Assembly: GCA_947165255.1 (NCBI GenBank)
Contig: CAMUZR010000002.1
Location: forward strand, 1 to 64,000
DNA: 64,000 bases
DNA from: an uncultured Bacteroidales bacterium
GTDB taxonomy: Bacteria > Bacteroidota > Bacteroidia > Bacteroidales > P3
Direction of reading: 5' to 3'
A program made the position numbers and the translations under genes. Every line of letters begins with the position of its first letter. Within the stretch, counting starts at the first letter, position 1. This document shows, piece by piece, positions 31,788 through 63,999 of this stretch. The notes under the pieces were generated by a model, which was not told the DNA's origin, did no database searches, and saw only the letters and a program-made list of their open reading frames with translations.

Positions 31788-33836
31788 ATGAAACATCTGA
31801 ATTTTCTACACAATGCGGTATTCCGTTTCCGCCGTTTCAGTCGGTCGGGGTATGCCGCATTCCGTTCGATGCACAGGGTGGTCAATATTGGACGTCTGGC
31901 TTCCTATATCGCAGATCGCCAACTGAAGAAGTCGGTTGCGCTGGTGGCATTGTGGTTTCCGTTCTTATGCGGGACGGCCATGGCCCAGACCGACGACCAG
32001 TTGGAGGAGCATCTCTTACCTACTCTCGACATCGTTGCCGCAGCCGACTCCGCACAGGGGTCGCCCGATGCGGTTGCTGTCATCTCCCGAGTTCAGTTGC
32101 AGGGGTTGGCGGTGAGTTCCGTCGGGGAATTATTGGAGCAGTTGCCCGGATTGGATTTGCGTACCCGTGGAGGCAGCGACGTGCAAGGCGACCTTACCAT
32201 GCGAGGGGGCACTTTCGACCAGATGATTGTGCTGCTGAACGGTGTTAACCTGAACGATGCCCAGACGGGCCATCACAACCTTGACATTCCCATCGACCTG
32301 TCTATGGTCGACCGCGTCGAAATCATTCCGGCCGCCGCGTTGGTACACTATGGCCTTTCCTCTTTTTGCGGAGCTGTGAATATCGTCACGGGCGAGGCTG
32401 CGGCCAATCAGTTGCGCGCACAGATGGCGGGAGGCAGTTTCGGCCAGGCCCATCTTTCGGCCGGAGGAACCCGGAAGGTTGGCCATTGGACCCTCTCGGC
32501 CGCGGCCGCCTACCATCGCAGCGACGGCTACATGGCCAATACTGACTACCGCCACGGCAGTCTCTACCTTCAGGCCCGCCGCCACGGCAGGGTGGGGGAC
32601 TGGCTACTGCAGCTGGGCGGACAGACGAAAGATTTTGGTAGCCAGGCTTTCTACAGCCTCCGCTATCCCGACCAGTATGAGGCCACGCGCACACTCGTCG
32701 CTTCTGCCACCCGCAAGCGGTATTGGCACGGATGGCACCTTGAGGGCACTCTCTACGGCAGACTGCACAAAGACCGATTTGAGCTTTTCCGCGAGGGTAT
32801 GGTGGAAGCCCCTGCCTGGTATGGCGGTCATAACTACCACCTCTCGTCCAATGCCGGATTGCGGTTGCGGGCATCGCGCCGCTGGATGGCAGGCAAGACT
32901 ACTTTCGGCACAGAACTACGCGAAGAGTCTATTCTCAGTTCCGTTTTGGGCGACACGCTTGCCACTCCTCGCCCCGTCTATTGGGAACCCGAAGGGCATT
33001 TCTATACCCTAGGCAAGAGCCGCCTCAATGGCAACGCCTTTGTGGAACACAGCCTTTTTCTCCGCAAGGTGAAACTCACTGCCGGACTTATGGGTTCATA
33101 CAATACCCTGATGGGACCCAATTACGGCTATTCGCTGGGTGCCGAATACCCGATAGGCCCGCAGTGGCACTTGAAGGGCAGCGCGGGGCGTTCCTTCCGT
33201 CTGCCTACCTATACTGACCTGTACTACCACAGCGCCACACAGGTTAGCGACCCGAATCTGAAGCCCGAGGTGAGCCATCATGCTGAGTTGACATTGCGCT
33301 ATTCACGCCAGCATTTTCTTGCCGCTGCCACTCTTTATGGCCGTCACGGCACCAATATTATCGACTGGGTACGTATGCCGGAAGAGACGGTGTGGCACAG
33401 CATGAACCACGCCACGATTGATGCCATGGGAGGCGACCTTCAGGCTGCATACCGCGGCGATGGCGTTCTGCGTCGCCTGGGTGTGGGCTATTCCTATTGT
33501 ACCATGGCGCAGGCCGCCGATGGGTATATCAGTAATTATGTCCTTGACTACCTCCGCCATAAGGTGGGCATAGACCTGATGCTTTCGCCCTTCTGCAATT
33601 TCCGGGTGAAACTCTTGGCAGACTACCATTACCGTGTCGGGACCTATACTGACCTGCAGGGGAAGCCACAGGCTTACGCACCAGTCCTCCTTTTCAATGG
33701 CGGATTGGAATACGACCTGTGGCAGCTAACCTTCTTTGCCGAAGGATATAATTTACTGAATAAAGAATATTGTGATTATGGCGGCATTCTCCAGCCCGGT
33801 ATTTCTATCGTGGGCGGGGTGCGCCTTAAAATGTGA
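31788..33836 (+). CDS. TonB-dependent outer-membrane receptor
   Basis: A 682-residue receptor. The plug domain starts around residue 85 (AVAVISRVQLQGLAVSSVGELLEQLPGLDLRTRGG, MRGGTFDQMIVLLNGVNLND, VDRVEIIPG-like VEIIPAAALVHYG) and there is no carboxypeptidase-regulatory pre-domain. The barrel ends in GGVRLKM. Its compact size suggests a cobalamin- or siderophore-class receptor; the substrate is unassigned. The signal peptide h-region is only at about 49-66 (VALVALWFPFLCGTAMAQ), so the true start may be the Met at 31869. No riboswitch is visible upstream. Confidence 0.9.
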   Translation: MKHLNFLHNAVFRFRRFSRSGYAAFRSMHRVVNIGRLASYIADRQLKKSVALVALWFPFLCGTAMAQTDDQLEEHLLPTLDIVAAADSAQGSPDAVAVISRVQLQGLAVSSVGELLEQLPGLDLRTRGGSDVQGDLTMRGGTFDQMIVLLNGVNLNDAQTGHHNLDIPIDLSMVDRVEIIPAAALVHYGLSSFCGAVNIVTGEAAANQLRAQMAGGSFGQAHLSAGGTRKVGHWTLSAAAAYHRSDGYMANTDYRHGSLYLQARRHGRVGDWLLQLGGQTKDFGSQAFYSLRYPDQYEATRTLVASATRKRYWHGWHLEGTLYGRLHKDRFELFREGMVEAPAWYGGHNYHLSSNAGLRLRASRRWMAGKTTFGTELREESILSSVLGDTLATPRPVYWEPEGHFYTLGKSRLNGNAFVEHSLFLRKVKLTAGLMGSYNTLMGPNYGYSLGAEYPIGPQWHLKGSAGRSFRLPTYTDLYYHSATQVSDPNLKPEVSHHAELTLRYSRQHFLAAATLYGRHGTNIIDWVRMPEETVWHSMNHATIDAMGGDLQAAYRGDGVLRRLGVGYSYCTMAQAADGYISNYVLDYLRHKVGIDLMLSPFCNFRVKLLADYHYRVGTYTDLQGKPQAYAPVLLFNGGLEYDLWQLTFFAEGYNLLNKEYCDYGGILQPGISIVGGVRLKM

Positions 33837-50589: not shown

Positions 50590-50625
50590 TTAAAAACAAA
50601 CGGCCGCCTCAAAAGGGCGGCCGTT
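50590..50625 (-). terminator. Terminator of the riboswitch-controlled surface protein gene
   Basis: CGGCCGCC-cttttga-GGCGGCCG on the minus strand, followed by TTTGTTTTTAA. It isolates the gene from sppA. Confidence 0.85.
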
Positions 50626-50695: not shown

Positions 50696-52630
50696 TTAGT
50701 GTTTCACCACCAGGCGCTGAGCCTGGCCGTCGATGCGGAGGATGTACATACCGTCGGCCATGTCGGCGGTGCCGAGGCTCACCTGGCGGCCGTTGAAGGT
50801 CTGCTGGAGCATCAGCTGGCCGTTGGTGCTGTAGATGGCGGCCACGTGCTGGCCGTTGCCCTCCACGGTGCACATCACAACGTTATTGGCAGGGTTGGGG
50901 AAGAGCTGCACCTTGCCTGCAAGCGCATTGTCGATGCCCACGGGCTGGGAATATTTCCAGTTGAGCACTGCCACGCCGTCCAGGTCGAAGCCGCAGCTGT
51001 TGCCGTTGGTGGGGTAGGGGTCCATGACCATGTTGCCGTACTGGTCGTAGGTGGCATAAGCGGGGTCGTTGGTGCCGATGACGTCAACCACGCGCACGTA
51101 CATAATGCTGTCCAGGTCGATGCCGGTGCTGTCGCTCAGCTGGGCCAGGTCAAACGGAGTGCCGAAGCCACTGCGGTACTTGCCAGCCAGATTGTCGATA
51201 AAGGTGGGGTCGACTGAACCATATTCGCCAAGAACGTCGCAAGTGGCCGTGAGCGAGGTGGCAGGAAAACGAACGAAACGTTCGCCATCGGTGCTGACCT
51301 CCACAAAGGCAAGCTCCAAGAAGTTGTCGTTAAAACTGTTCTCAAAAATGGCAAAGTCAAAGCCTTCGCCGTTGGCAATGGGGTGCTCAAAGGTGAGGGT
51401 GGCCATGCCGCCGTCGCCCAGGCTGACCACCTCCAGGTTGTTGCCCGTCACAGGTCCCACGGCGTCGTTGGCCGTGCCGTAGCTGACGGTGCTGGAGCTG
51501 GGGTTGGTAATGTCCGACGGGCCTAACTCCAAGGTGCAGGTGGCGGCCCAACCCTTGATGCGGCTGTCGGTATAGCTCACGGCGCTGGCGCCTTCGCTGC
51601 CGGCTGCGCCACAGAAAGGACCGGCCACAATCACGTCGATGGGGGTGATAGTAGTGTTCCAAGCCATCTCCGAGGGATAGCCCCAGGCAGTGTCGATGAC
51701 AATGCCGATAGAGGCATCGCCCCATTTCACAAAGTCGCCGTCGAACAGCATCTGAGCGTCATAACCCATCTGTGAGGAGCTTCCGTTGAGGTTGCACCAC
51801 CAGTAGTTATAGCCCTCGCTCGGGACGGCCAGGGCCATGTTGGTGCCGGCATAGTCGTGATAAAGGATGTCGCTAATGCCCCAACTGCCGGGGACATAGC
51901 TGAAACGGTAGTCGGCGCAGGCAATGCTGTCCATGGCAGCCTGCAGGGTGATGCTGTCGTTGAAGCGCACACCCCATGCCAGGCAGCTGTCGGCCCAGTT
52001 CACGGCAATCACCACCTCGCTCTCGCCGCTGCCGTACCAAGTCAGAATGTCATCTGCGGCAATGCTGTTCGTGTCGGGGACAATGGGTTCGGTGTGGTTG
52101 GGGTCGATGGCGGCGGTGGCAGAGGTCATGTCGAAAGAGCAGCTGCCGCTCATCTCAATCACGTCGCCGCTGTCCACAGCCTGGTTGTCATAGGTGTACA
52201 AGCCAAAACTGCCGTTGTAGTTAAAGCACCAGTAGTTCGTAGGACTGCTCAGCGTGTCGCCGTTCTCGACGTACTCCACGTTACTAATCAGGCTGTATTC
52301 AAAATTGAAAGTAAAGCGGCTGTCGTGGGCTGCAATCGAGTCCAGCAGGTCCAGCGCCGTGGCGTCGTTGCCGTTCCAGCGGACACCCCAGACCAGCGCC
52401 GTCGGGTCGTCCATGTCGTCCCAGGCCACGATGACCACCGACTGGTTGCTGCCGGTGCCGCACCAGAACTGCACGTCGTCGGCACTGAAATCAATGTTCT
52501 TAGAATCTTTCAAAGTGTTGTAAATGCCGCGTCCCGCATCTTCGCGAGCATACAACTCGTTGTTACTTTGTGCCCACAGGCCGGCCATGAGGACCATACC
52601 GAGGCAGAGCATAGATAATTTTTTCATCAT
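50696..52630 (-). CDS. T9SS-sorted surface protein under cobalamin riboswitch control
   Basis: A 644-residue secreted protein (signal peptide MMKKLSMLCLGMVLMAGLWAQ). Two related repeats, at about 48-165 and 190-310, share a pattern of ADDV/I..W.G.G....VV...W.D, L.WGVR and DSIA..D.RF. A third domain at about 340-560 has VSLGDGGMATLTFEHPI, FDFAIFENSFNDNFLELAFV, LAGKYRSGFGTPFDL and RVVDVIGTNDPAY. It resembles the cell-surface protein domain seen in Bacteroidota B12 loci. The C-terminal 80 residues (VQLFPNPANNVVM ... LVVKH) form a type A T9SS sorting domain. Downstream is a terminator, so it is monocistronic. I infer a cobalamin-capture or cobalamin-related surface role; no catalytic motif is visible. 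BtuG/BtuH-like function is an analogy only. Confidence 0.8.
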   Translation of the reverse strand: MMKKLSMLCLGMVLMAGLWAQSNNELYAREDAGRGIYNTLKDSKNIDFSADDVQFWCGTGSNQSVVIVAWDDMDDPTALVWGVRWNGNDATALDLLDSIAAHDSRFTFNFEYSLISNVEYVENGDTLSSPTNYWCFNYNGSFGLYTYDNQAVDSGDVIEMSGSCSFDMTSATAAIDPNHTEPIVPDTNSIAADDILTWYGSGESEVVIAVNWADSCLAWGVRFNDSITLQAAMDSIACADYRFSYVPGSWGISDILYHDYAGTNMALAVPSEGYNYWWCNLNGSSSQMGYDAQMLFDGDFVKWGDASIGIVIDTAWGYPSEMAWNTTITPIDVIVAGPFCGAAGSEGASAVSYTDSRIKGWAATCTLELGPSDITNPSSSTVSYGTANDAVGPVTGNNLEVVSLGDGGMATLTFEHPIANGEGFDFAIFENSFNDNFLELAFVEVSTDGERFVRFPATSLTATCDVLGEYGSVDPTFIDNLAGKYRSGFGTPFDLAQLSDSTGIDLDSIMYVRVVDVIGTNDPAYATYDQYGNMVMDPYPTNGNSCGFDLDGVAVLNWKYSQPVGIDNALAGKVQLFPNPANNVVMCTVEGNGQHVAAIYSTNGQLMLQQTFNGRQVSLGTADMADGMYILRIDGQAQRLVVKH

Positions 52631-52938
52631 AATAATAATTACAAATTTTTAAACAATTCGTCTCTCGCGTCCCTCGGCGGACAACACGTGTCGTGAGGGG
52701 GCACTTGTTCAAAAACAGCAATCGGGTGGGAGAAAAAAGAGGGGGTGAGCTTTGCGTCTAGTCTGGCCGGCGGCGGGCACAAGAGGCCGGGGGCGGGTTG
52801 CCGTTTGGCGACGGGGCAGCATCCGTTGGCGCTGTGCTGCCGGGGGGTAGGCGGTGGGCAGCCTGGGGTCGCTCGGCGGCTGCCGCAGTGGGGGTAGGTC
52901 TTTTTTAAGCTCTTTCCTCGAAAGCCTGTTTCAAAAAA
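52631..52938 (-). other. Long leader between riboswitch and coding sequence
   Basis: About 300 nt of G/C-rich leader follows the riboswitch before the ATG. It includes T/A runs near 52731-52740 and 52900-52906 on the sense strand and GC-rich inverted segments (GCAGCCGCC / GGCAGCAC). No open frame is convincing. It could hold the expression platform or a second control layer. Confidence 0.5.
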
Positions 52939-53125
52939 GTGCGACTTGGCAGGTCTTCTGACTTATCCTCCACTCGGCCTCGGCCTTCCCATGCGGCTAT
53001 GGCGCCGCACAGTGGCGATCATTCTTTTTTGAGGCTGTGGCATTTAGGACTCACAGCAGCGGGACTGTCCGGGACTTTCACCCGAGTTCCCTTTTCACAC
53101 CGCCTTACGGCAGTGACCAAATCGA
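52939..53125 (-). ncRNA. Cobalamin (B12) riboswitch
   Basis: Read on the minus strand, the aptamer shows the whole conserved series: P1 arm CGATTTGG, then GGGAACTCGGGTGAAAGTCC, GGACAGTCCCGCTGCTGTGA, the B12-box core GCCACTG, GGGAAGG, and GATAAGTCAGAAGACCTGCC, closed by CCAAGTCG pairing with P1. This is a standard adenosyl/hydroxocobalamin-sensing element that lowers expression when B12 is abundant. The only downstream gene on this strand is the T9SS-sorted surface protein at 50696-52630. Confidence 0.96.
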
Positions 53126-53128
53126 CTG

Positions 53129-53156
53129 CAAAAGTACACATTTTTTCTCAATCGCT
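53129..53156 (-). promoter_or_regulatory. Promoter of the cobalamin riboswitch transcript
   Basis: TACTTTTG (53129-53136) on the minus strand, with a TTTTTTG -33-like element about 20 bp further upstream. Transcription would start just before the P1 stem. Confidence 0.7.
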
Positions 53157-53214
53157 CAAAAAATAATTTACCAAAAGTTGCAAACCTCTGGCACCGTGCA
53201 GTATAAATAGCCAT

Positions 53215-53460: not shown

Positions 53461-53499
53461 AAAAGACGCAGGCCGGCTCTTTGTGGGAACCGGCCTGCG
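53461..53499 (-). terminator. Terminator of the giant surface protein gene
   Basis: GCAGGCCGGTTC-ccacaaa-GAGCCGGCCTGC on the minus strand, followed by GTCTTTTTCTG, 19 bp after the stop codon. Confidence 0.9.
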
Positions 53500-53517: not shown

Positions 53518-56500
53518 TTAGCGGATGAGGGTGACGGTGCGGGTGACGGTCTTGAAGGATTGGGGTTCGAGGGTGGTGCTGTAGCGGCATTTGTAGACGT
53601 AGGCGGCCTGGGGGCAGGGCGCTCCGTCGTGGGTGCCGTCCCAGGGTTGGTCGATGTCGGTGCTGTGGAACACTATGTCGCCCCGGCGGTCGTATATCCA
53701 TATTTCGAAGTCGGCTATCCCATTGCCGATGGCCTTGAAGGTGTTGTTGCTGGTGAGCGTGGGGGTGAAGATGTTGGGGAAGAATAGGTTGGAAACGATG
53801 GAGGGGACCATCACGGTGTCGGAGTCGGCGCAGAGGTCGTTGGACACGGCAAGGGTGATGAGCACACTGTCCACACTCAGCGGCACTTCGAGGCGGAGGG
53901 TTCTGGCGGTGTCGACAAAGTTGGCTCCGTCGTAGTACCATACGTGCCACGTCAGGTCGGTCTGCTGGTTGCTGCCGGCATTGCGCACGAGCAGTGTGCG
54001 GCGTTCGTAGGTGAGGTAGTCGGGGTGGACGTCGATGAGTGCCTTGACGGTTTGGATGGGTTCCAGCTGTATGCTGTCGACGGTCGGGCACAGGGGGGTG
54101 TCGCCATAGTCGGCAAAGAGGTAGTAGCGGGTGCTGCGGGCGGGGTTGGGGTGGAGGATGCTGTCGCCTTCGTGGCTGTCGAGGTAGTCGTCGTAGGGGA
54201 GTGAGGTCCACTGGAGGTAGGGGGCGTCGGTGTGGGCGACGAGGGTGTAGTGCTGGTCGGGGCCGCAGATGTGTGAGGTGTCGAACGAGAGGGTTGGGTA
54301 GGGCAGGACGAAGAGGGTTAGTATCTTCAGGGTGTCGGCCTGGAGGAGGACGGCGCTGCGGACGGTGTCGCGGTAGACGCCGGGCTGGGTGAGGTGGCGG
54401 CCGCCGAAGAGGACTGAGTCGCCCTGGCAGATGCTGTCGGTGAGATGGACTTCGTTGAGGCCGATGTTGGTCAGGTGGAGGGTGAGGACTGAGTCGCAAC
54501 CAAGGGAGGTGGTGTAGTGGAAGGGATAGTCGCCGGGCTGGGTGAGGGGGGTGTCTTGGAAGATGGCGGTGTCGCCGCTGTAGATGGTGTCGAAGAAGTG
54601 GAGGTCGTAGGCCGGACGGGCGGTGAGGTGGAGTGTGACGATGCTGTCGCACATGGCGGAGGTGAGCAGCGTGAAGGTGTAGGAGCCGGTGGCGCTGAAG
54701 GCGGAGTCGGCAAAGGGCAGGGGCTGGTTGTCGCAGATGGTGTCGTAGAAGTCTTGGATGTAGGTTGGGTTGACGTGCATGGCCAGGGTGACGGTGCTGT
54801 CGGCACCGTGGATGTTGAGGAAGGTGTGGCGTATGGTGTCGGCGAAGGGGTGTCCCTGCCAGAGGAAGTCGGCAACGGCATTGTCGCAGATGGTGCTGTC
54901 GGCCAGGGTGGCGTTGTTGGGCCAGATGAAGAGGTTGTAGTTGACGGTGCTGTCGCAGCCGTGGGCGTTGGCGAGGGTGACGGACATGCCGACGGTGTCG
55001 TGGTTGACGGGTATGCCGGCGTATTGCCATGCGGCGGCTTGGTTTTCGACGATGGTGTCGAAGATGCTGCTGCTAGTGTTGTGGTGCACGAGCAGGCTGA
55101 GGGTGGCGGCGCTGTCGCAGCCATACTGGGTGATGCGTTGGAGCGCGTAGAGGGTGTCGCCAGTGGCCAGCAGGGTGTCGCCCCAGGTGTAGGGCAGCTG
55201 GGTGGGACAGAGGGCGAGGGTGTCGTGGAGGTCGTAGACGGGGTGGACGGTGATGGTGTGGGCGAGGGTGTCGGTGCAGCCGTCGGGGTTGGTGACGATG
55301 CAGAGGAGGGTGGTGTCGGTTTCGGGGGCGGCCACGGCGAGGGAGTCGAAGACGTTGACGGTGGTGTCGTCGGTGAGCCAGAGGTAGGATATGCCGCCGG
55401 AAACCCTCACGGTGTCTTCGGGATTGCCGAAACAGCGGTGGGCGGGGCCGGTGATGGTGGGGGTTGCGGAAGGATATTCGAGCACGATGGGCTTGATGAT
55501 GGTGTCGGCACAGGAGCCGCCGCCGAGGTAGGAGATGAGCATTACCTGGTAGGTACCGGGGGTGGTGTAGACGGTGCTGCCGTTATAGTCGGTCGAGGTC
55601 ATGCCGTTGCCAAAGTCCCAGAAGGCGGTTTCGCAGCCTTCGCCGGTGCCGATGGGCGTCACCCCGTCGGAGGAGATGGTGCTGAGGTTGTTGAACTGGA
55701 CGTAGAATTGGCAGTTGTTCAAGGACACGGTGGAGTCGAAGAGTGCGAGGGGATAGCGTGTGCCGGCGAAGGCCGACATGGTGAAGTAGCAGGACTGGTT
55801 GTCGACAAAGGATACGTCGCAGTAGTAGGTGATGCTGGAGGTGGGTATGTTGATGGACTGGGTGGTGAAGAGGGTGGTTTTGTCGATGGTGTCGGTGTAC
55901 CAGTTGTAGTTGAAGCCGTCGGGCATGGTGAAGATGTTGGACTCGACCTCGCCGCAGTATTCGGAGCGGATGTTTTTGAGGAGGCAGTCGAGGGTGAAGT
56001 AGGCGTAGCCGTAGTGGCTGCCCTCGCCGCAGTCGTAGGTGGTGAGGCGGATGCGGATGGTTTGGTTGGCATAGGCGCTCATGTCCAGACCGACGGTGGT
56101 CCAGTCTTTCCAGAGGACGTCGCCGGGAGCTTCGTTCCAGCCGAGGCTGGCGTTGGCGATGAAGTCGGCGGCACCGCAGCGGGAGTCGATGAGTTGGTTG
56201 TTTTCGTCGAGAATTTCGATGCTGAAGCGTGGCTGCTGGGCGGAACTGTGTTCGGGGTCTTGCAGGACGGCGGCATACTTGAGGATGAGGAGGTCGAAGG
56301 AGGCGGGGTCGACGAAGAGGCTGTAGGTGACGGACTCGGCTTCGGGGCTGGAGCTGTTGGAGGTCCAGTTGCCCAGACGGACGGAGGCTTCGGCACCTTC
56401 TGGGATGGTGCGGAGGAGGCCGCCGGTGCGTGGGTCGAACTCGGTGGTGTCGTAGTGGACGGTGTGGCGGCTGAGAGCGCTGAGGCTGCCGTAGTCGACG

Positions 56501-59500
56501 ATGCCCATGTGGCTGCGGGGGTTGCTGTAGGAGCCGTAGGTGCAGGAGGTGTATTCGGCGGTGAGGTTGGTGGGGTCGATGCAGCCGGTGCCGCCCGCCG
56601 GGGTGAAGAGGGTGATGGTGTCGCAGTAGTCGGTGTTGCAGTAGTCGGTGGTTGAGGAGTCGCCGCAGGAGGTGCAGAAGCGGAACTCATAGTCGGTAAG
56701 GTTGTCGAGGTTGGTGATGGTGTAGGGCGGGTGGTTGGGATGGAGGGTGGTGCCGGTGCCGGTAGCGAACCCCACGGGGCCGTATTCGATGGTGACGAGG
56801 GGGCTGCCAGCCTGCTGCCAGTCGACGGTGAGACGGTCGGCAGCAAGTTCGCGCACACGCAGGTCGGCCGCACCGCATTCGGAAATATAGAGGTCGTCGA
56901 GGTAGAGCCAATCCCAGCTGCCGGAGGTCTTGGTGAGGCGGAAGGCGATGAAGTGGGCGTCGGCCGGGGCACCGGAGAGGGTGGCCTGTATGCGTTGCCA
57001 CTGGTTGTTCTGGGTGTTGGTGAAGCGTTTGAGGGTGATGAAGGAGCTGGGGTCGTAGGGGTCGCTCATGACGCCTAGGTCGAGAATGAAGGTGCCGTAG
57101 TTGCTGTTTTTCATCCAGAAGGAGACGGCGAGTTGCGAGAGGCTGTCGACCATTAGGTCGGGCAGGACGGCATAGGGGAAGCGGTTGGTGTAGGCAGAGC
57201 AGAAGCGGAGCGATTTGCCAGGGGTGTGGCTTTGGTCGTTGTAGACGTAGCAGTCGTTGTCGTTCTCGACTGGCACGCGCAGTTTGTGCCATCCGTAGGG
57301 CATTTGGTTGTTGGGGCAGGTGTCGAAGTTGAAGCACACGGGGAGTGGCAGCGGGCCGTCCTGGGTGGCAACGGTCTGCGGGGGGACGCAGGTGGGGGAG
57401 AGGGTGTCGCAGAGGAAGTAGAAGTCGTAGGCAGAGCCGTTTTGGAGAGTGATGTTGGTGGGCAGGCTGTCGATGCGGATTTTCTGGCCGGTGCCTTGGT
57501 CGAAACCAGTGAGGCCGTATTCGAGCCAGAAGCCGGTGCGGGAAGGTTGGGGAGCATGTATGGCCACTTCGTTATGGCGGAAGAGGCTGGCGGTGATGCC
57601 GACGGGAATGTCGCAGGTGAGGAATTCGAGACGGTCGATGTAGATGCTGCGCCAGTTGCCGTTGGTTTCTCTCATGCGCAGGGCCACGAAACGCCCCTGG
57701 CCGTGGTAGCGATCGAGGGAGGTGCTGTGGTATTCCCATACCCCGGTGGCATCGTAGCGGATGGTGTCGATGGGCACAAAGGTGCGGAGGTCGCACATGT
57801 CGGTCATGATGCCGACTTCGAGGAAGGTGTTTGGCTCGAACCAAGCGCGCAAGCGCAGGTAGAGTTGGTTGAGGCTGTCGATGTCCATTTCGGGCATGAC
57901 GGCGTAGGCATAAAGGTTGCTGTAGAGGTTGAAGCGGAGGGCACGGCTGTCGGCGGCCTGACTCATGTTCACTACCTGCAGGCGGTCGGCGTTGTTGTCG
58001 GACATGAAGCGCTTCCAGCCTGTTGGGAAGGCGTTGGAGCCGGTGCCGTAGCTGTTGAACTCGTCGCAGTAGGGGATGGTTTGCAGGTGGGAGGTGGCGA
58101 TGCGTGTGCGAGGATAGCAGGAGGAGGTGAAGGAGGAGTCGCAGCGGGAATAGAAGTCGTAGGTGGTGTTGGGGGTGAGGTTGGAGATGGAGTAGGAGTT
58201 GTCGGTGATGTGAAGCAGTGTGTTGTGGGGGGTGAGGGTGAAGGAGAGGCTGTCGTCGCTCCAGAGGGTGTCGGCTGCGCCCTGGACGATGCCTGCGGGG
58301 CCATATTCAAGCCAATAGTCGGGGGAATAGCTTTCGTCCAAGGTGAGAAGGACGGTGGTGGCTCCCAGCTGCCGGATGGTGGGTCGGGGGCAGGTTTGGA
58401 TGAAGAGGTCGTCGATGTATACGGAGTTGCAGTTGCCAGTGGTGTTAACCATGCAGAAGGCGATGAACCTTCCGTTGCCGGAATAGCGTCGCAGGGAGGC
58501 ATGCTTTGCTTCCCAGGTGTTGTTGGCGGAGTTGCGGAGGGTGTCGACGGCTACGAAGGTGCTGATGTTGTTTTGGTCGGACATGACGCCCATGATTATC
58601 ATGAACTGATTGCGCTCACTCATCATGTTGAAGTAGAGTTCGGCGTGGCGGAGGGAGTCGATGTCGATTTCGGGCATGATGGCATAGCTGCGGCTGTTAG
58701 AATTGCAGTTGTTGTAGAATTGGAGGTGGCCGCTGTGGTGTTTTTGAGGATAGTCGGAGTGGTAGCTGTTGTGGCGTTTCCAGTTGGGAATCATCTGATA
58801 GTTGGGATAGCCGTCGAAATTGTCGCAGTAGGGGGCGGAGAGGATTGTGGAAGTGGTGATGCGGGTCAGGGGGAAGCAGGTGACGTCGCCGCTGTCGGCA
58901 TGGTGGTAGAAGTCGTAGGTGGTGAGTTCGTTGAGGTTAGTGATGCAGACAGTGTCGGAGGTGACGTGGAGCCAGGTGTTGGAGCTGTCGCCTTGGTGGC
59001 ATCCTTGGGTGCCGTATTCAATCCAGTAGCCAGAGTGGGGGCAGTGGTTGGCATAGGCGCAAACGGTGGTGGCACTGGTGAGCGCAAACGAGGGGGTGGG
59101 ATGGGTGTTGACCTTGAGGTTGTCAAGATAAAGGTACATGCAGCCGCTTGTGCGGTAGGCGCAGAAGGCTATGAAGCGGCCAGTGCCATTGTAGCTGTGG
59201 AAGGAGACGTGCTGCGGTTGCCATACGTTGGAGGCAGTGCATTGGAGTGTGTCGATGGGGGTGAAGGTGGAGAGGTCGTTGCGGTCGTCCATCACTCCTA
59301 CGATGAGGAATTGGTTGTTCCAATAGCGGCTGTAAAGGTTGAAGTAGATTTCGGCATGGCGGATGGAGTCGATCATGAGGTCGGGCATGATGGCGTAGTC
59401 GCGATTGTTGCTGTTGCAGTAGTTGCCGAAGAAGAGTTCTTGGCTTCCGTTGACGTAGGGCTCGGGGGTGCCGCCTTGGCGTATGGCCGTCCAACCGGTG

Positions 59501-62500
59501 GGCATCTGGCCGTTGCTGTAGGAGCTGAAATCGTCACAATAGGGCATTGGGAGTTCGTGGGCAATGGTGAGGGTGCGGGGGTGGCAGTCCAGGCCTTGCT
59601 CGGAGCAGGAGGTGAAAAAGGTGTAGACGCTGTCGGGGTCGAAGGGACCTATGTAGGCGGGGTTTTGTGTGATGTGGATGACGGTGTTGGAGCTGTCGCC
59701 TTGGAGTGAACCTTCAGGGCCATATTCGAGCCAGTAGTCGGCGACGGGGCTTCCACCAGGGATGGTTGCTTTGACTTGACGGGCACCGGAGGAGGCGAGG
59801 TCGGGCAGGGGGCAGGCAGATACTTGCAGGTCGTCGAGGTAAATGGAGGTGCGACTGCTGGTGGTGAGTATGCGGAAGGCTACGAAGCGTCCTGTACCCT
59901 GGTAGCGTTGGAGGTTGATGTGTTTGAGATAGTACACTCCGCCTTCGGCGCATGAGAGGGTGTCCACGGGGGTGAAGGTGTTGAAATCGGTGCGATCGTC
60001 CATTACGCCCACTACTAAACTGGTGCGGCTGACGTCTTCGATACGGAGCGAGAACTGGAGGTCGAGATTGCGCACACTGTCGATGTCGAAGTCGGGGAGG
60101 GCGGTGTACTGCAGGTGATTGTTGTTGCTGTAGAAATGCATGGTTTGGCAGCAACTGTTGTAGCAGCTGTTGTTGGTGCGTGGGTAGGAGTCGCCATAGG
60201 CGCTAAAACTAAACCATCCGGGTGGAACGGAAAGATTGTCGCAGGAGTCGAAGTTGTCGCAATAGGGGAGAGAGACGGCGTCGGGGGTGGAGAAGGAGTA
60301 GGGGAGGCAGATGCGTTCGCCCAGCGGACTGATGAAGTAGACTTGATATGTCTGGCTGGGAATAAGGCCGGTGAGGAGGGCGGAGCAGCTGTCGCTGGCA
60401 ATGGTGTGCCAGTTGTCGCCGAAGCCGTATTCTATATAATAGAAGGGGTTGTTATACTGGTTGTTCCAAGTGATGCGCTGCGTGGAGAACCCATAGACGG
60501 TGCTAGAGAGGGCGGTGGGGTAGGGATAGTTGGAGAGGACGAATTTGGAGAGCCTGATCCACCGGCAGCCGGAGGTGCTGCGGGCACGTATGGCAAGGCG
60601 GTTGACGGAGGTGGTGTTGCCGCTGAGCTGTACGTTGAATTCGCGTAGGGTTTCGGTCTGTCCGTTGCTGAGCGAGGCCATCTGGACGAAGGAGTCGGCA
60701 TCGGAGGTGTCGGAGAGGGTTCCTAGGTCGAGGTAGATATAGTTGTTGTTGGAGGTGGAGAAATAGGCATAGACCCATTTGCCATTCAGCGAGTCGCCAG
60801 AGGGTAGGGGGCGCAGAAGCGCCATATTGTCGTTGTTGGAACAGGGGTAGAAAACTATAACTTGCTGGCCATGTTGGGTTTCGGAGTGAGGGTAAACGTC
60901 GCGGCTGCGCATGGTCTTCCAGTCGTAGGGCATGACGTCGTTTGGCATGTCTTCGAAGTCTTTGCAGTAGGGTGGGTAGAGCATGGGGTTGAGCGTGTAG
61001 GCCACGGGAGCACAGAGGGCCATGTCGGTGTCGCTGCACTGGGCCATGATGTAGAAGTCGTAGTTGCTGTCGGGGTCGATGCCGGTGATTGTATAGGGGC
61101 TGAAGGTGGTAACGATGGTGTTGGGGGTGTAGGTGCTGTCCTCTAGGTCGAATCCTTGGCGGCCATATTTTATGGTGACCGAAGAGGGAGAGTGGAGCGA
61201 GGTCCAGCCGATTTGGACAGAGGTGGGCGAAGTGGTGAACTGAACGTCGGTAATGCCGCAGCGGCCTACGTAAATGTCGTCGATATAGTAAATGTAGCTT
61301 TCGTTTGTGGGTTTGTAGCGGAAGGTGATGTATTGTCCCATGCCAACGTATGAAGAGAAGTCGACGCTGAATTGCTGCCAACGGGCAATGTCGGTCAGTC
61401 GGAAAGCCGCAATTTCGGTGTAGGTGGAAGGATTGTCGGGGTTGGTCATAATGCCAACGTGGAGGGCATCGGTGGAAGTGGCGTTGAGGTTGGATGCGTA
61501 GGCATAGAATGTCATGACCATTTCGTGTGCGGTGCCTTCATGCAGGGGAGGGAGCGACATGAAGCAGGCGGTGTCGGTGGTGGTGTAGAGGGCAATGCAG
61601 GATTCGCCGCTGTGGTGATTCGTAGTGGTTAGCACAGGATAGAGGTTGGAAGAGCCTACGATGCGGCGGTAGCTGGGCGGGAAGTTGAGGGAGTCGTAAG
61701 TTTCGTATGATTCGCAGTAGGGAATATCTAGGTAATTGGCTTGGGTGGTGATGATAAAGCCGGTGCCGCCACCCCAGCCACCGCTGGCGCCGCCACCACC
61801 ACCGATGCCACCGCCACCATAGCCGCCACCACCACCGATGCCACCGCCGCCATAGCCGCCACCGCCGCCATAGCCGCCGCCAATGGTGCTTCCGCTGTCG
61901 GGTGTGAAGGTGGCGCCGATTATCTGGCAGTCGCAGAGAGAGATGAAGTTAAATTCATACTCGGTAAGCTCGGTGAGGCCATCTATGACGGCCGGGCTTG
62001 AAGTGATGGTGTCGAAGGTGCCGTGGCCGTGGGCGAAACCACGCTCGCCGTATTCCACGACGATGCCTTGGGTGCCTTGGCTGGTCCAGGTTACGGTGAT
62101 AGAATTTTGGGTGATTTCGGTGATGCTCAGGTCGGACGTGACGCACTTTTCGATGCATAGGTCGTCGACGTAACACTCGCACCCGTTGCCGTCGGCCGAA
62201 AGAAGTTTTAATGCAATAATGTGGTCGTTGCCTGAGTAGGAACTGAGCGACAGTGAATGGTGTTCCCATACGGAGGAGGTGCCTGCAAGGGTGTCCACGC
62301 CCACGAAACTGTTGGTGTCAAGAATGTCTGACATAACGCCGACCACAAGTCGGGCAGAAGAGGTGTTTCCAGAAAAGTAGGTCCAGAAGTTGGCATAGAG
62401 GCCGCTAACGGCGCTGCATTCGCTGGTGGGATTAATGGTGGGCATGGCAGCGAGGCTGAAAAGGGAGTCGGCGGCAGTGAAAAGCAGGGAGTTGTCCTCG

Positions 62501-63999
62501 CTGTGGCGAATGTTGGAAGCGGTGCGGGGATAGTCGGTGCCGATGGTGGAGAGCCTGCGCCAGTTATTGGGGAAACTGCTTGAAGACAGGCCGTCAAAGC
62601 TGGAACAGAAGGGAATGTCAACCCAGGTATGGAGGGTCTCTTCGCGAAGGGTCTCGTAGTTGCAGTTGTCAGGGGTGCTGTCGCATTGCGGCCAGAGGTT
62701 GATGACAAACTGGGTGGCTTCGGTGAGGCCGTCGATATGGATGGGCGAGGAGGTGTAGAATGCGGGTGTGCCACCGCCAGGGGAGTAGGTCATCCATACG
62801 CCCTCGGTAGTTGGGGTGGCATGCCACACGACGTCGACACCGTCCTGTCCTAGCCCGCTCAGACTGCAGCTAGTGATGGCACAACTGCGCAGTGTGAGGT
62901 CGTCAATATAGGCCCAGCCACTGCTGCAGCCTGTGGCGCGATAGCGGAAAGCAATGTAGCGGCCGCTACCCGAGTAGGAGGCAAGCGAGCGCTTGACACG
63001 CGCCCAGCCACCGCTGGTATGGATGGTGTGGAGGCGGGTGAACGTGTTCGTGTCGCGCGGATTAGTCATGATGCCCACCTCAAGCTGGGCGTTAGGGTTC
63101 TCGTTATAGAAATAGAAATCAATCTGTGTGGAAGATATGTCGTCGGAGAGCATAGGCATGACCGCCATGGAAGTCTGGTCGTCCCAGCCGTTGCAGTAAT
63201 AAGAATAGAATTGCAGCGACTTGGAGGCAGAGCGGCAGCGTTCGGAACTGATTTTGGGATATTGGTCGCCATAGGGACGCACCCAGTCGGCGGGCATACG
63301 GTCTGCTGTCTCGCTGTCGAAATTGTTGCAGAAGGGGGTGAGCAACGGTTCGTCGAGGGTGTGGACGTTGATATGCTCCTGCTGGCATTCGTTGCTATCC
63401 TGGCACGAGGACCATACATAGAACTGGTAGTCAGTGCTGTTGGTCAGGCCTGTGATGGTAACGGAAGTGTCAAAAGTGTGGAGCACGGTGCCCGTCCCTA
63501 GGGAAAAACCTGTATGGCCGTATTCAACGGTGTAGCGTGTGGCGGAAGAGTGGGTGCCGTATTGCCGCCAGCTGAGGCGGGCACTCTGCTCGGTAATATC
63601 GGTGGCACGGAGGTCACCGGGCTTGCAAAGGCTGAAACCCAAATCGTCGAGGTAAGAATAGTAGCAGCCGTCGAGCGAGGTGTAGCGGAAGGCAATGTGT
63701 CTGGCCGAGCCGGAGTAGGAGGAGAGGTCCACCGTATAGCGCTGCCAGTGGCCGGTAGGCCGGATGGTTCTTATGGGCACGAAGGTAGAAGAGTCGTAGG
63801 GAAGGGTCATAACCCCTACTGTGAGCAGCGCACGGTTGCGCACGTCGTTACTAGAGCATCGCAACGAGAAAGAGAGCACCCCGCCTGCAACCGTGCTATC
63901 GGCTGCCGGCATTATGATGAAATTGCCATCGCCGCTTCCGGAACAGGTGTAGAATTCGATAGAGCGGCTGGGGGAGGTGTAATAGGAAGCGTCGCCGTT
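53518..63999 (-). CDS. Giant modular T9SS surface protein (adhesin-like), 5' end outside window
   Basis: More than 3,490 codons, open to the right edge, so start and signal peptide are missing. From N to C: part of one and then nine complete tandem modules of about 230-280 residues. Each pairs a jelly-roll domain (P[YF]C..F, MP..W, AVMP..DIDS, VGVM.D..D..TF, GRFIAFR, Y[IL]DDL) with an FN3-like domain (WLEYGP.GF..GTGT, Y.F...C). A Gly-rich insert lies after module 2. Next come a WKDWTTVGLDMSAYANQTIRI domain, a PKD domain (FWDFGNGMTSTDYNGST), several GCDSxVTLxL repeats, and a CHU_C gliding-type sorting domain (NLFFPNIFTPTLTSNNTFK). SprB-like adhesion or motility is plausible. No catalytic site is seen. 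Confidence 0.92.
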   Translation of the reverse strand, partial: NGDASYYTSPSRSIEFYTCSGSGDGNFIIMPAADSTVAGGVLSFSLRCSSNDVRNRALLTVGVMTLPYDSSTFVPIRTIRPTGHWQRYTVDLSSYSGSARHIAFRYTSLDGCYYSYLDDLGFSLCKPGDLRATDITEQSARLSWRQYGTHSSATRYTVEYGHTGFSLGTGTVLHTFDTSVTITGLTNSTDYQFYVWSSCQDSNECQQEHINVHTLDEPLLTPFCNNFDSETADRMPADWVRPYGDQYPKISSERCRSASKSLQFYSYYCNGWDDQTSMAVMPMLSDDISSTQIDFYFYNENPNAQLEVGIMTNPRDTNTFTRLHTIHTSGGWARVKRSLASYSGSGRYIAFRYRATGCSSGWAYIDDLTLRSCAITSCSLSGLGQDGVDVVWHATPTTEGVWMTYSPGGGTPAFYTSSPIHIDGLTEATQFVINLWPQCDSTPDNCNYETLREETLHTWVDIPFCSSFDGLSSSSFPNNWRRLSTIGTDYPRTASNIRHSEDNSLLFTAADSLFSLAAMPTINPTSECSAVSGLYANFWTYFSGNTSSARLVVGVMSDILDTNSFVGVDTLAGTSSVWEHHSLSLSSYSGNDHIIALKLLSADGNGCECYVDDLCIEKCVTSDLSITEITQNSITVTWTSQGTQGIVVEYGERGFAHGHGTFDTITSSPAVIDGLTELTEYEFNFISLCDCQIIGATFTPDSGSTIGGGYGGGGGYGGGGIGGGGGYGGGGIGGGGGASGGWGGGTGFIITTQANYLDIPYCESYETYDSLNFPPSYRRIVGSSNLYPVLTTTNHHSGESCIALYTTTDTACFMSLPPLHEGTAHEMVMTFYAYASNLNATSTDALHVGIMTNPDNPSTYTEIAAFRLTDIARWQQFSVDFSSYVGMGQYITFRYKPTNESYIYYIDDIYVGRCGITDVQFTTSPTSVQIGWTSLHSPSSVTIKYGRQGFDLEDSTYTPNTIVTTFSPYTITGIDPDSNYDFYIMAQCSDTDMALCAPVAYTLNPMLYPPYCKDFEDMPNDVMPYDWKTMRSRDVYPHSETQHGQQVIVFYPCSNNDNMALLRPLPSGDSLNGKWVYAYFSTSNNNYIYLDLGTLSDTSDADSFVQMASLSNGQTETLREFNVQLSGNTTSVNRLAIRARSTSGCRWIRLSKFVLSNYPYPTALSSTVYGFSTQRITWNNQYNNPFYYIEYGFGDNWHTIASDSCSALLTGLIPSQTYQVYFISPLGERICLPYSFSTPDAVSLPYCDNFDSCDNLSVPPGWFSFSAYGDSYPRTNNSCYNSCCQTMHFYSNNNHLQYTALPDFDIDSVRNLDLQFSLRIEDVSRTSLVVGVMDDRTDFNTFTPVDTLSCAEGGVYYLKHINLQRYQGTGRFVAFRILTTSSRTSIYLDDLQVSACPLPDLASSGARQVKATIPGGSPVADYWLEYGPEGSLQGDSSNTVIHITQNPAYIGPFDPDSVYTFFTSCSEQGLDCHPRTLTIAHELPMPYCDDFSSYSNGQMPTGWTAIRQGGTPEPYVNGSQELFFGNYCNSNNRDYAIMPDLMIDSIRHAEIYFNLYSRYWNNQFLIVGVMDDRNDLSTFTPIDTLQCTASNVWQPQHVSFHSYNGTGRFIAFCAYRTSGCMYLYLDNLKVNTHPTPSFALTSATTVCAYANHCPHSGYWIEYGTQGCHQGDSSNTWLHVTSDTVCITNLNELTTYDFYHHADSGDVTCFPLTRITTSTILSAPYCDNFDGYPNYQMIPNWKRHNSYHSDYPQKHHSGHLQFYNNCNSNSRSYAIMPEIDIDSLRHAELYFNMMSERNQFMIIMGVMSDQNNISTFVAVDTLRNSANNTWEAKHASLRRYSGNGRFIAFCMVNTTGNCNSVYIDDLFIQTCPRPTIRQLGATTVLLTLDESYSPDYWLEYGPAGIVQGAADTLWSDDSLSFTLTPHNTLLHITDNSYSISNLTPNTTYDFYSRCDSSFTSSCYPRTRIATSHLQTIPYCDEFNSYGTGSNAFPTGWKRFMSDNNADRLQVVNMSQAADSRALRFNLYSNLYAYAVMPEMDIDSLNQLYLRLRAWFEPNTFLEVGIMTDMCDLRTFVPIDTIRYDATGVWEYHSTSLDRYHGQGRFVALRMRETNGNWRSIYIDRLEFLTCDIPVGITASLFRHNEVAIHAPQPSRTGFWLEYGLTGFDQGTGQKIRIDSLPTNITLQNGSAYDFYFLCDTLSPTCVPPQTVATQDGPLPLPVCFNFDTCPNNQMPYGWHKLRVPVENDNDCYVYNDQSHTPGKSLRFCSAYTNRFPYAVLPDLMVDSLSQLAVSFWMKNSNYGTFILDLGVMSDPYDPSSFITLKRFTNTQNNQWQRIQATLSGAPADAHFIAFRLTKTSGSWDWLYLDDLYISECGAADLRVRELAADRLTVDWQQAGSPLVTIEYGPVGFATGTGTTLHPNHPPYTITNLDNLTDYEFRFCTSCGDSSTTDYCNTDYCDTITLFTPAGGTGCIDPTNLTAEYTSCTYGSYSNPRSHMGIVDYGSLSALSRHTVHYDTTEFDPRTGGLLRTIPEGAEASVRLGNWTSNSSSPEAESVTYSLFVDPASFDLLILKYAAVLQDPEHSSAQQPRFSIEILDENNQLIDSRCGAADFIANASLGWNEAPGDVLWKDWTTVGLDMSAYANQTIRIRLTTYDCGEGSHYGYAYFTLDCLLKNIRSEYCGEVESNIFTMPDGFNYNWYTDTIDKTTLFTTQSINIPTSSITYYCDVSFVDNQSCYFTMSAFAGTRYPLALFDSTVSLNNCQFYVQFNNLSTISSDGVTPIGTGEGCETAFWDFGNGMTSTDYNGSTVYTTPGTYQVMLISYLGGGSCADTIIKPIVLEYPSATPTITGPAHRCFGNPEDTVRVSGGISYLWLTDDTTVNVFDSLAVAAPETDTTLLCIVTNPDGCTDTLAHTITVHPVYDLHDTLALCPTQLPYTWGDTLLATGDTLYALQRITQYGCDSAATLSLLVHHNTSSSIFDTIVENQAAAWQYAGIPVNHDTVGMSVTLANAHGCDSTVNYNLFIWPNNATLADSTICDNAVADFLWQGHPFADTIRHTFLNIHGADSTVTLAMHVNPTYIQDFYDTICDNQPLPFADSAFSATGSYTFTLLTSAMCDSIVTLHLTARPAYDLHFFDTIYSGDTAIFQDTPLTQPGDYPFHYTTSLGCDSVLTLHLTNIGLNEVHLTDSICQGDSVLFGGRHLTQPGVYRDTVRSAVLLQADTLKILTLFVLPYPTLSFDTSHICGPDQHYTLVAHTDAPYLQWTSLPYDDYLDSHEGDSILHPNPARSTRYYLFADYGDTPLCPTVDSIQLEPIQTVKALIDVHPDYLTYERRTLLVRNAGSNQQTDLTWHVWYYDGANFVDTARTLRLEVPLSVDSVLITLAVSNDLCADSDTVMVPSIVSNLFFPNIFTPTLTSNNTFKAIGNGIADFEIWIYDRRGDIVFHSTDIDQPWDGTHDGAPCPQAAYVYKCRYSTTLEPQSFKTVTRTVTLIR
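61762..61884 (-). repeat. Glycine-rich low-complexity insert in the giant protein
   Basis: About 40 codons encoding GGGYGGGG/GGIGGGGGYGG-type repeats, read on the minus strand. It sits between the FN3-like part of module 2 and the jelly-roll of module 3. The DNA is a tandem repeat of roughly 30-bp units (CCGCCACCACCACC-like on plus). Confidence 0.85.

Follow-up and report, generated by a model that had tools for sequence, protein, structure and literature searches.

A cobalamin-riboswitch gene in a Bacteroidales bacterium predicted to encode a surface protein with transcobalamin-type repeats and a BtuH-type domain

Introduction

What does a solitary gene behind a vitamin B12 (cobalamin) riboswitch provide when no btuB adjoins it? 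The question is raised by a 64,000-nucleotide stretch of DNA from an uncultured Bacteroidales bacterium (the window: positions 1 to 64,000 of contig CAMUZR010000002.1, assembly GCA_947165255.1), in which a minus-strand cobalamin aptamer precedes a gene for a secreted protein with two internal repeats, a domain named here after its FENSF motif and a sorting domain of the type IX secretion system (T9SS). A preliminary description of this DNA had taken the product for a surface protein, delivered by the T9SS, that either binds cobalamin or spares B12 and works with no btuB beside it. Our analysis of domains, modelled folds and gene context favors the first of these readings and not the B12-sparing alternative, as the links that we found are to B12 capture. 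We consider it highly probable that this is a B12-repressed gene for a surface-displayed cobalamin-capture protein, because of the riboswitch linkage of its homologues, their place in btuB-btuG operons, the match of the repeats to DUF4430, the BtuH fold of the FENSF domain and its conserved Asn and Phe, the joining of DUF4465 to FENSF in relatives, the genes that neighbor both modules elsewhere, and the content of the own genome (no CbiC, two methylmalonyl-CoA mutase genes, the T9SS protein SprA). The gene has the following parts:

52931-53135, minus strand: cobalamin riboswitch aptamer (RF00174, 103.4 bits; gathering score 31.5)
52631-52930, minus strand: C-rich leader (110 C and 68 G in 300 nucleotides)
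50696-52630, minus strand: open reading frame for a 644-residue secreted protein with a signal peptide, 2 transcobalamin-type repeats, a BtuH-type domain and a T9SS type A tail
52571-52630, minus strand: signal peptide, about residues 1-20, without a lipobox cysteine (by eye from the sequence)
52076-52501, minus strand: repeat 1, residues 44-185, DUF4430 (PF14478) / transcobalamin beta-domain type
51626-52075, minus strand: repeat 2, residues 186-335, transcobalamin beta-domain type
50936-51625, minus strand: FENSF domain, residues 336-565, BtuH-type fold
51332-51340, minus strand: Asn431-Ser-Phe433 of the FENSF motif, paired by hhalign with Asn399 and Phe401 of BtuH2
50702-50905, minus strand: C-terminal T9SS sorting domain of type A (residues 576-643; TIGR04183, 35.2 bits; cut-off 23)

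Results

Homologues are linked to cobalamin riboswitches and to btuB-btuG operons

The aptamer is complete, as first described, covering model positions 1-189 in full, and is the sole RF00174 match of the window. We analyzed how regularly such aptamers accompany homologues in the 149 genomes of the family, 138 of which held a match to the protein. RF00174 was searched in 51 of these 138 genomes, mostly the best-matching ones, and yielded 160 aptamers; the genes counted (n=53) were one homologue per genome, or two in G088 and G123, with further paralogues left out, and the sample is skewed to strong matches. An aptamer lay upstream on the same strand of 49 of the 53 genes, in 41 cases at most 300 nucleotides from, or overlapping, the estimated frame start and in 8 at 1.2-4.9 kilobases. 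In all eight distant cases the intervening genes were co-directional: they encoded BtuB and BtuG in L044, L045, L047 and L049, BtuG in L051 and a repeat protein in L048, L050 and L052. L062, fetched separately, also carried btuB and btuG, and the homologue is the third gene of a riboswitch-btuB-btuG operon in five loci (L044, L045, L047, L049 and L062). The ten btuB and btuG genes of these loci and the btuG of L051 were 36-47% identical to the riboswitch-linked btuB and btuG of the window's own genome. Three of the four genes without an aptamer run off a contig end (G112, G135 and G093), and the fourth (G123:C8), which has one repeat and neighbors resembling those of a named relative (L013), is a real absence. 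Real absence of the riboswitch from homologues, part of what the preliminary description had named as evidence against itself, amounts to one gene in 53.

A one-repeat orthologue for which no riboswitch was found was observed at L017:1498-3066 and L097, 60 nucleotides behind an outer-membrane-efflux-like gene (by eye); it perhaps represents a natural loss of the switch and of one repeat.

In other genera of the family, an aptamer preceded the gene by 121-142 nucleotides in 8 of 8 hand-picked loci (L054-L061), of which L057 and L059 are 96% identical and not independent and L058 has a weak aptamer (36 bits). The proteins of these loci carry FENSF without repeats, and in both of the two proteins tested from such genera FENSF was joined to DUF4465 and a T9SS tail. 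B12 binding by the DUF4465 family is reported in the available part of one study (PMC13398666). BtuJ1, BtuJ2 and the DUF4465 proteins are riboswitch-linked B12 scavengers, as the window protein is predicted to be, but the window protein itself gave no match to DUF4465 (PF14717) at E <= 1.

The FENSF domain resembles the B12-binding domain of BtuH

BtuH entries ranked first and second in the structural ranking for the FENSF domain, with 17-20% identity in the structural alignments, and 7biz_B was the only Foldseek match of the domain at E <= 0.001. With the whole 644-residue model, Foldseek placed an adhesin and glycosidases on top at a template-modelling (TM) score of about 0.1 and 7biz_B 14th; this order was replaced by a realigned list of its 1000 best chains and by the single-domain model. 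Alignment of the domain with BtuH relatives by hhalign (82%, 37 columns, 46% identity) placed the equivalents of Asn399 and Phe401, which contact the B12 phosphate and lower ligand in BtuH2, while six other BtuH2 contacts were not alignable. Among FENSF-domain sequences, the Asn was kept in 42 of 42 and the Phe in 41 of 42. No Pfam model fitted the FENSF domain convincingly, with chance-like matches in a few of the 42 members; against PDB sequences the repeat profile and the FENSF profile gave two and one chance-like matches, respectively (E >= 0.1), and the matches of the single sequence and the whole-protein profile were confined to the T9SS tail. The fold and the two contact residues suggest that the FENSF domain is a cobamide binder.

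Among the closest known counterparts of the window protein are two from Bacteroides thetaiotaomicron, BtuH2 (BT1956) and the BtuG1/BtuGH H domain (PDB 7biz, 8blw). Features in common are the fold of the FENSF domain, the Asn and Phe of the contact motif, riboswitch control, a predicted surface role and, in relatives, linkage to btuB and btuG. However, published descriptions present BtuH2 as a lipoprotein whose N-terminal domains are immunoglobulin-like, whereas the window protein is T9SS-sorted and has transcobalamin-type repeats in their place. Because it lacks a lipobox Cys (by eye) and carries a T9SS tail instead, we do not class it as a BtuH, only as a protein working like one.

Across the phylum, 35 of the 296 genomes searched, the own genome among them, matched the FENSF profile. 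A BtuG-like neighbor was present at 21 of the 29 FENSF loci examined outside the family (three of these genes had helped to build the model used and three matched weakly, E 3e-8 to 8e-6), a BtuB-like TonB receptor at 16 and an aptamer at 4; at least one of the three accompanied 26 of the 29, the exceptions being L072, L073 and L080. A membrane protein gene and then the FENSF gene followed a weak cobalamin aptamer at L069:2224-3005 (37 bits) and at L070:2214-2994 (35 bits); the membrane protein of L069 belongs to DUF6580, which may be part of a B12 transporter.

The repeats are of the transcobalamin beta-domain type

The two internal repeats noted at the outset were borne out by aligning residues 45-185 with 186-336, which scored 161 compared to 34.8 +/- 6.5 (maximum 65) in 500 shuffles. 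DUF4430 matched the whole protein at residues 90-160 with 27.0 bits (gathering score 23.8); as a six-frame match it reached 22.4 bits, below the cut-off of 23.8. Searched singly, 8 of 36 repeats matched DUF4430 at E <= 0.01, and the relative from L062 matched at 2e-12. In its model, repeat 1 has the strand order b-b-alpha-hairpin-b, the beta-grasp with a beta-hairpin after the helix that defines the DUF4430 / transcobalamin-like SLBB clade, and the best structural matches of repeat 2 were transcobalamins and haptocorrin. This fold and the DUF4430 assignment are shared with the beta domain of transcobalamin, haptocorrin and intrinsic factor, whereas the window protein is bacterial, has tandem repeats and a T9SS tail, and showed no alpha/alpha toroid domain. 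A 2007 survey, in the part available, lists the transcobalamin-like SLBB clade from animals, low-GC Gram-positives, planctomycetes and euryarchaea (PMC1796856). The repeats, too, probably bind cobamides.

The repeat profile matched 96 of 148 family genomes compared to 6 of 296 phylum genomes, own included. Beyond the family it found six loci in five genomes, and all six were of B12-uptake type. At L101-L104 a longer protein, encoded beside a BtuH-type gene, bears the repeat close to its N-terminus, and the BtuG-like model matches three of these four proteins; in L101, from another family, Pfam shows the DUF4430-type repeat fused to a DUF5074 propeller. L105 has the gene order BtuH-type, repeat protein, BtuG-like, and L107, with two repeats and a T9SS tail, is the only one of the six with an aptamer in the stretch examined. 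BtuG, the DUF5074 propeller protein, is a B12-uptake partner, and such a propeller is joined to a repeat of this type in L101; the window protein differs in giving no match to a DUF5074 or YncE propeller at E <= 1.

Only one of the two modules might bind B12, the FENSF domain or the repeats, with the other serving as spacer, anchor or carbohydrate-binding module, the last option arising because CBM32/discoidin domains are similar in fold to BtuH. We regard such a division as rather unlikely: each module occurs without the other behind B12 riboswitches, so each alone seems selected, the FENSF domain retains two contact residues of BtuH, the Asn and the Phe, and B12 carriers are the best structural matches of the repeat. 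Less likely still is a multivalent reserve in which every repeat holds its own B12 and long forms store several. Repeat number does range from 1 to 5 per protein (122 proteins scanned), with 8 in one frame of L050, but few repeat positions are conserved (5 invariant columns across 36 aligned repeats).

B12 genes elsewhere in the genome point to cobamide uptake

Six cobalamin aptamers were found in the own genome, that of the window included; the other five lie on contigs C1, C24, C25, C19 and C31. C25 and C19 each carry a riboswitch-btuB-btuG locus. On C24 (L009:2648-11288) the riboswitch precedes a gene for a 2236-residue T9SS paralogue and, after it, a CobW-family GTPase gene; the paralogue has four repeats, one at the N-terminus and three further on, together with fibronectin III domains and a FENSF domain. 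On C1 (L008:5917-9027) it precedes nrdD (anaerobic ribonucleotide reductase) and an activase-like gene; this locus directly follows a methylmalonyl-CoA mutase gene and was read as a B12-sparing switch. The aptamer on C31 (L012:5462-5662) is complete (82 bits) and stands before no recognizable gene, with no open reading frame of at least 70 codons in the 0.8 kilobases after it on the same strand; it may represent a remnant, or else a small RNA. CbiC, the corrin-ring synthesis gene tested as a marker, and the MetH activation domain were absent from the genome, which holds two methylmalonyl-CoA mutase genes; judged from gene content, the bacterium therefore probably takes up cobamides.

These loci bear on two further explanations. 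The first is that the product is a B12-sparing or unrelated surface protein, such as an adhesin or enzyme, made when B12 is short; in its favor, the nrdD locus pairs a riboswitch with a B12-sparing enzyme and the C24 paralogue carries fibronectin III domains. We nevertheless hold this to be extremely improbable for the window gene, as no catalytic domain was found in its product among the Pfam and NCBIfam matches and its domains and neighbors indicate B12 capture. The second explanation concerns the partner transporter, for which the preliminary description had proposed the TonB receptor at 31788-33836 (plus strand). The best NCBIfam model of this receptor is indeed TonB-B12, at 93.8 bits compared to 68 and 77 for the riboswitch-linked receptors. 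However, that score is far below the cut-off of 599.7, identity to the riboswitch-linked BtuBs is 20-25% in alignments of 130-573 residues, and the receptor gene has no riboswitch and lies on the opposite strand 17-19 kilobases off, while the genome has its two riboswitch-btuB-btuG loci. We thus consider this pairing very unlikely, though the receptor itself may be a cobamide transporter.

Promoter, leader and surroundings of the gene

The promoter and the terminator first proposed by inspection were both recovered, the latter just beyond the end originally given for the locus. These and the remaining features are:

53129-53160, minus strand: promoter TTTG-N20-TACTTTTG, an exact match to TTTG-N19-21-TAnnTTTG
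52907-52927, minus strand: hairpin AGGCTTT-CGAGGAA-AGAGCTT, folded, directly 3' of the aptamer and conserved
50599-50625, minus strand: intrinsic-terminator-like stem-loop followed by a T tail (terminator scan)
53518-63912, minus strand: separate upstream giant T9SS gene (3464 residues, CHU_C tail)

The promoter consensus, which we take to be of Bacteroidota type, occurs four times in the window compared to 0.26 expected, and none of 100 shuffles reached four. A T[T/C]TCGnGG-type loop motif lay at most 80 nucleotides from the cobalamin aptamer in 22 of 26 aptamers inspected, and the hairpin is probably the P13/L13 element. At the own genome's two btuB loci only 27 nucleotides separate aptamer and ATG, so that the hairpin adjoins the start codon, which fits translational control; the spacing is 300 nucleotides in the window gene. 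The terminator scan found no intrinsic-terminator-like site on the same strand in the leader, and this long C-rich segment is possibly, at a guess, a platform for Rho-dependent termination. The riboswitch probably represses the gene in a B12-dependent manner.

The description of the gene as standing alone held: no btuB adjoins it, and a terminator-like site (53467-53499) separates it from the giant T9SS gene, whose product has fibronectin III and cleaved-adhesin-like matches and a Gly-rich stretch. A search for related loci returned one relative. In the named relative L013, other genes occupy the position of the giant gene. The sorting domain, recognized from the start as type A, exceeded the cut-offs of both TIGR04183 (E 8.8e-9) and PF18962 (E 1e-7); together with the signal peptide and the SprA of the own genome (2360 bits), it marks the protein as type A T9SS cargo.

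Discussion

We propose that low intracellular cobalamin would let the riboswitch permit expression, and that the protein would then cross the outer membrane via the T9SS, shed its tail and be held on the surface, probably on lipopolysaccharide. There cobamides would be bound tightly by the BtuH-type domain and, probably, by the repeats as well, and the vitamin would be passed to the BtuB-BtuG transporters from the two other riboswitch loci of the genome. By analogy, the protein would work like the BtuH, BtuJ and BtuK lipoproteins of B. thetaiotaomicron, reaching the surface by another route. The sections available of the relevant papers report that B12 represses reporters of such operons in that species (PMC12751083), that loss of BtuH2, a very tight B12 binder, is detrimental to uptake and fitness (PMC8941943), and that BtuH2 is not retained on BtuBG, with help across loci posed as a question (PMC10404256).

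More tentatively, the protein may be a multivalent bacterial counterpart of transcobalamin, a T9SS-displayed string whose repeats each hold a cobamide or lid the BtuH-type site, the lid version being modelled on the transcobalamin beta domain closing over its partner domain. Bacteroidota, and not only Firmicutes, would then hold B12-dedicated relatives of the intrinsic-factor domain.

Riboswitch-controlled surface B12 catchers are already known; our data suggest that the T9SS route and the presence of transcobalamin-type repeats beside a BtuH-type domain are a new variation. In the open-access literature, as far as its accessible text goes and with most subscription papers outside the search, we found no account of a DUF4430 domain linked to either a BtuH-type domain or a T9SS protein. 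On this reading, T9SS-displayed proteins would join lipoproteins as competitors for B12 in Bacteroidota, and FENSF is suggested to be a widespread BtuH-type B12 module, giving many hypothetical proteins annotated as 'T9SS sorting domain-containing' a testable function. The findings also place transcobalamin-type domains in bacterial B12-uptake operons with btuB, btuG and btuH, which may bear on the origin of the beta domain of animal B12 carriers.
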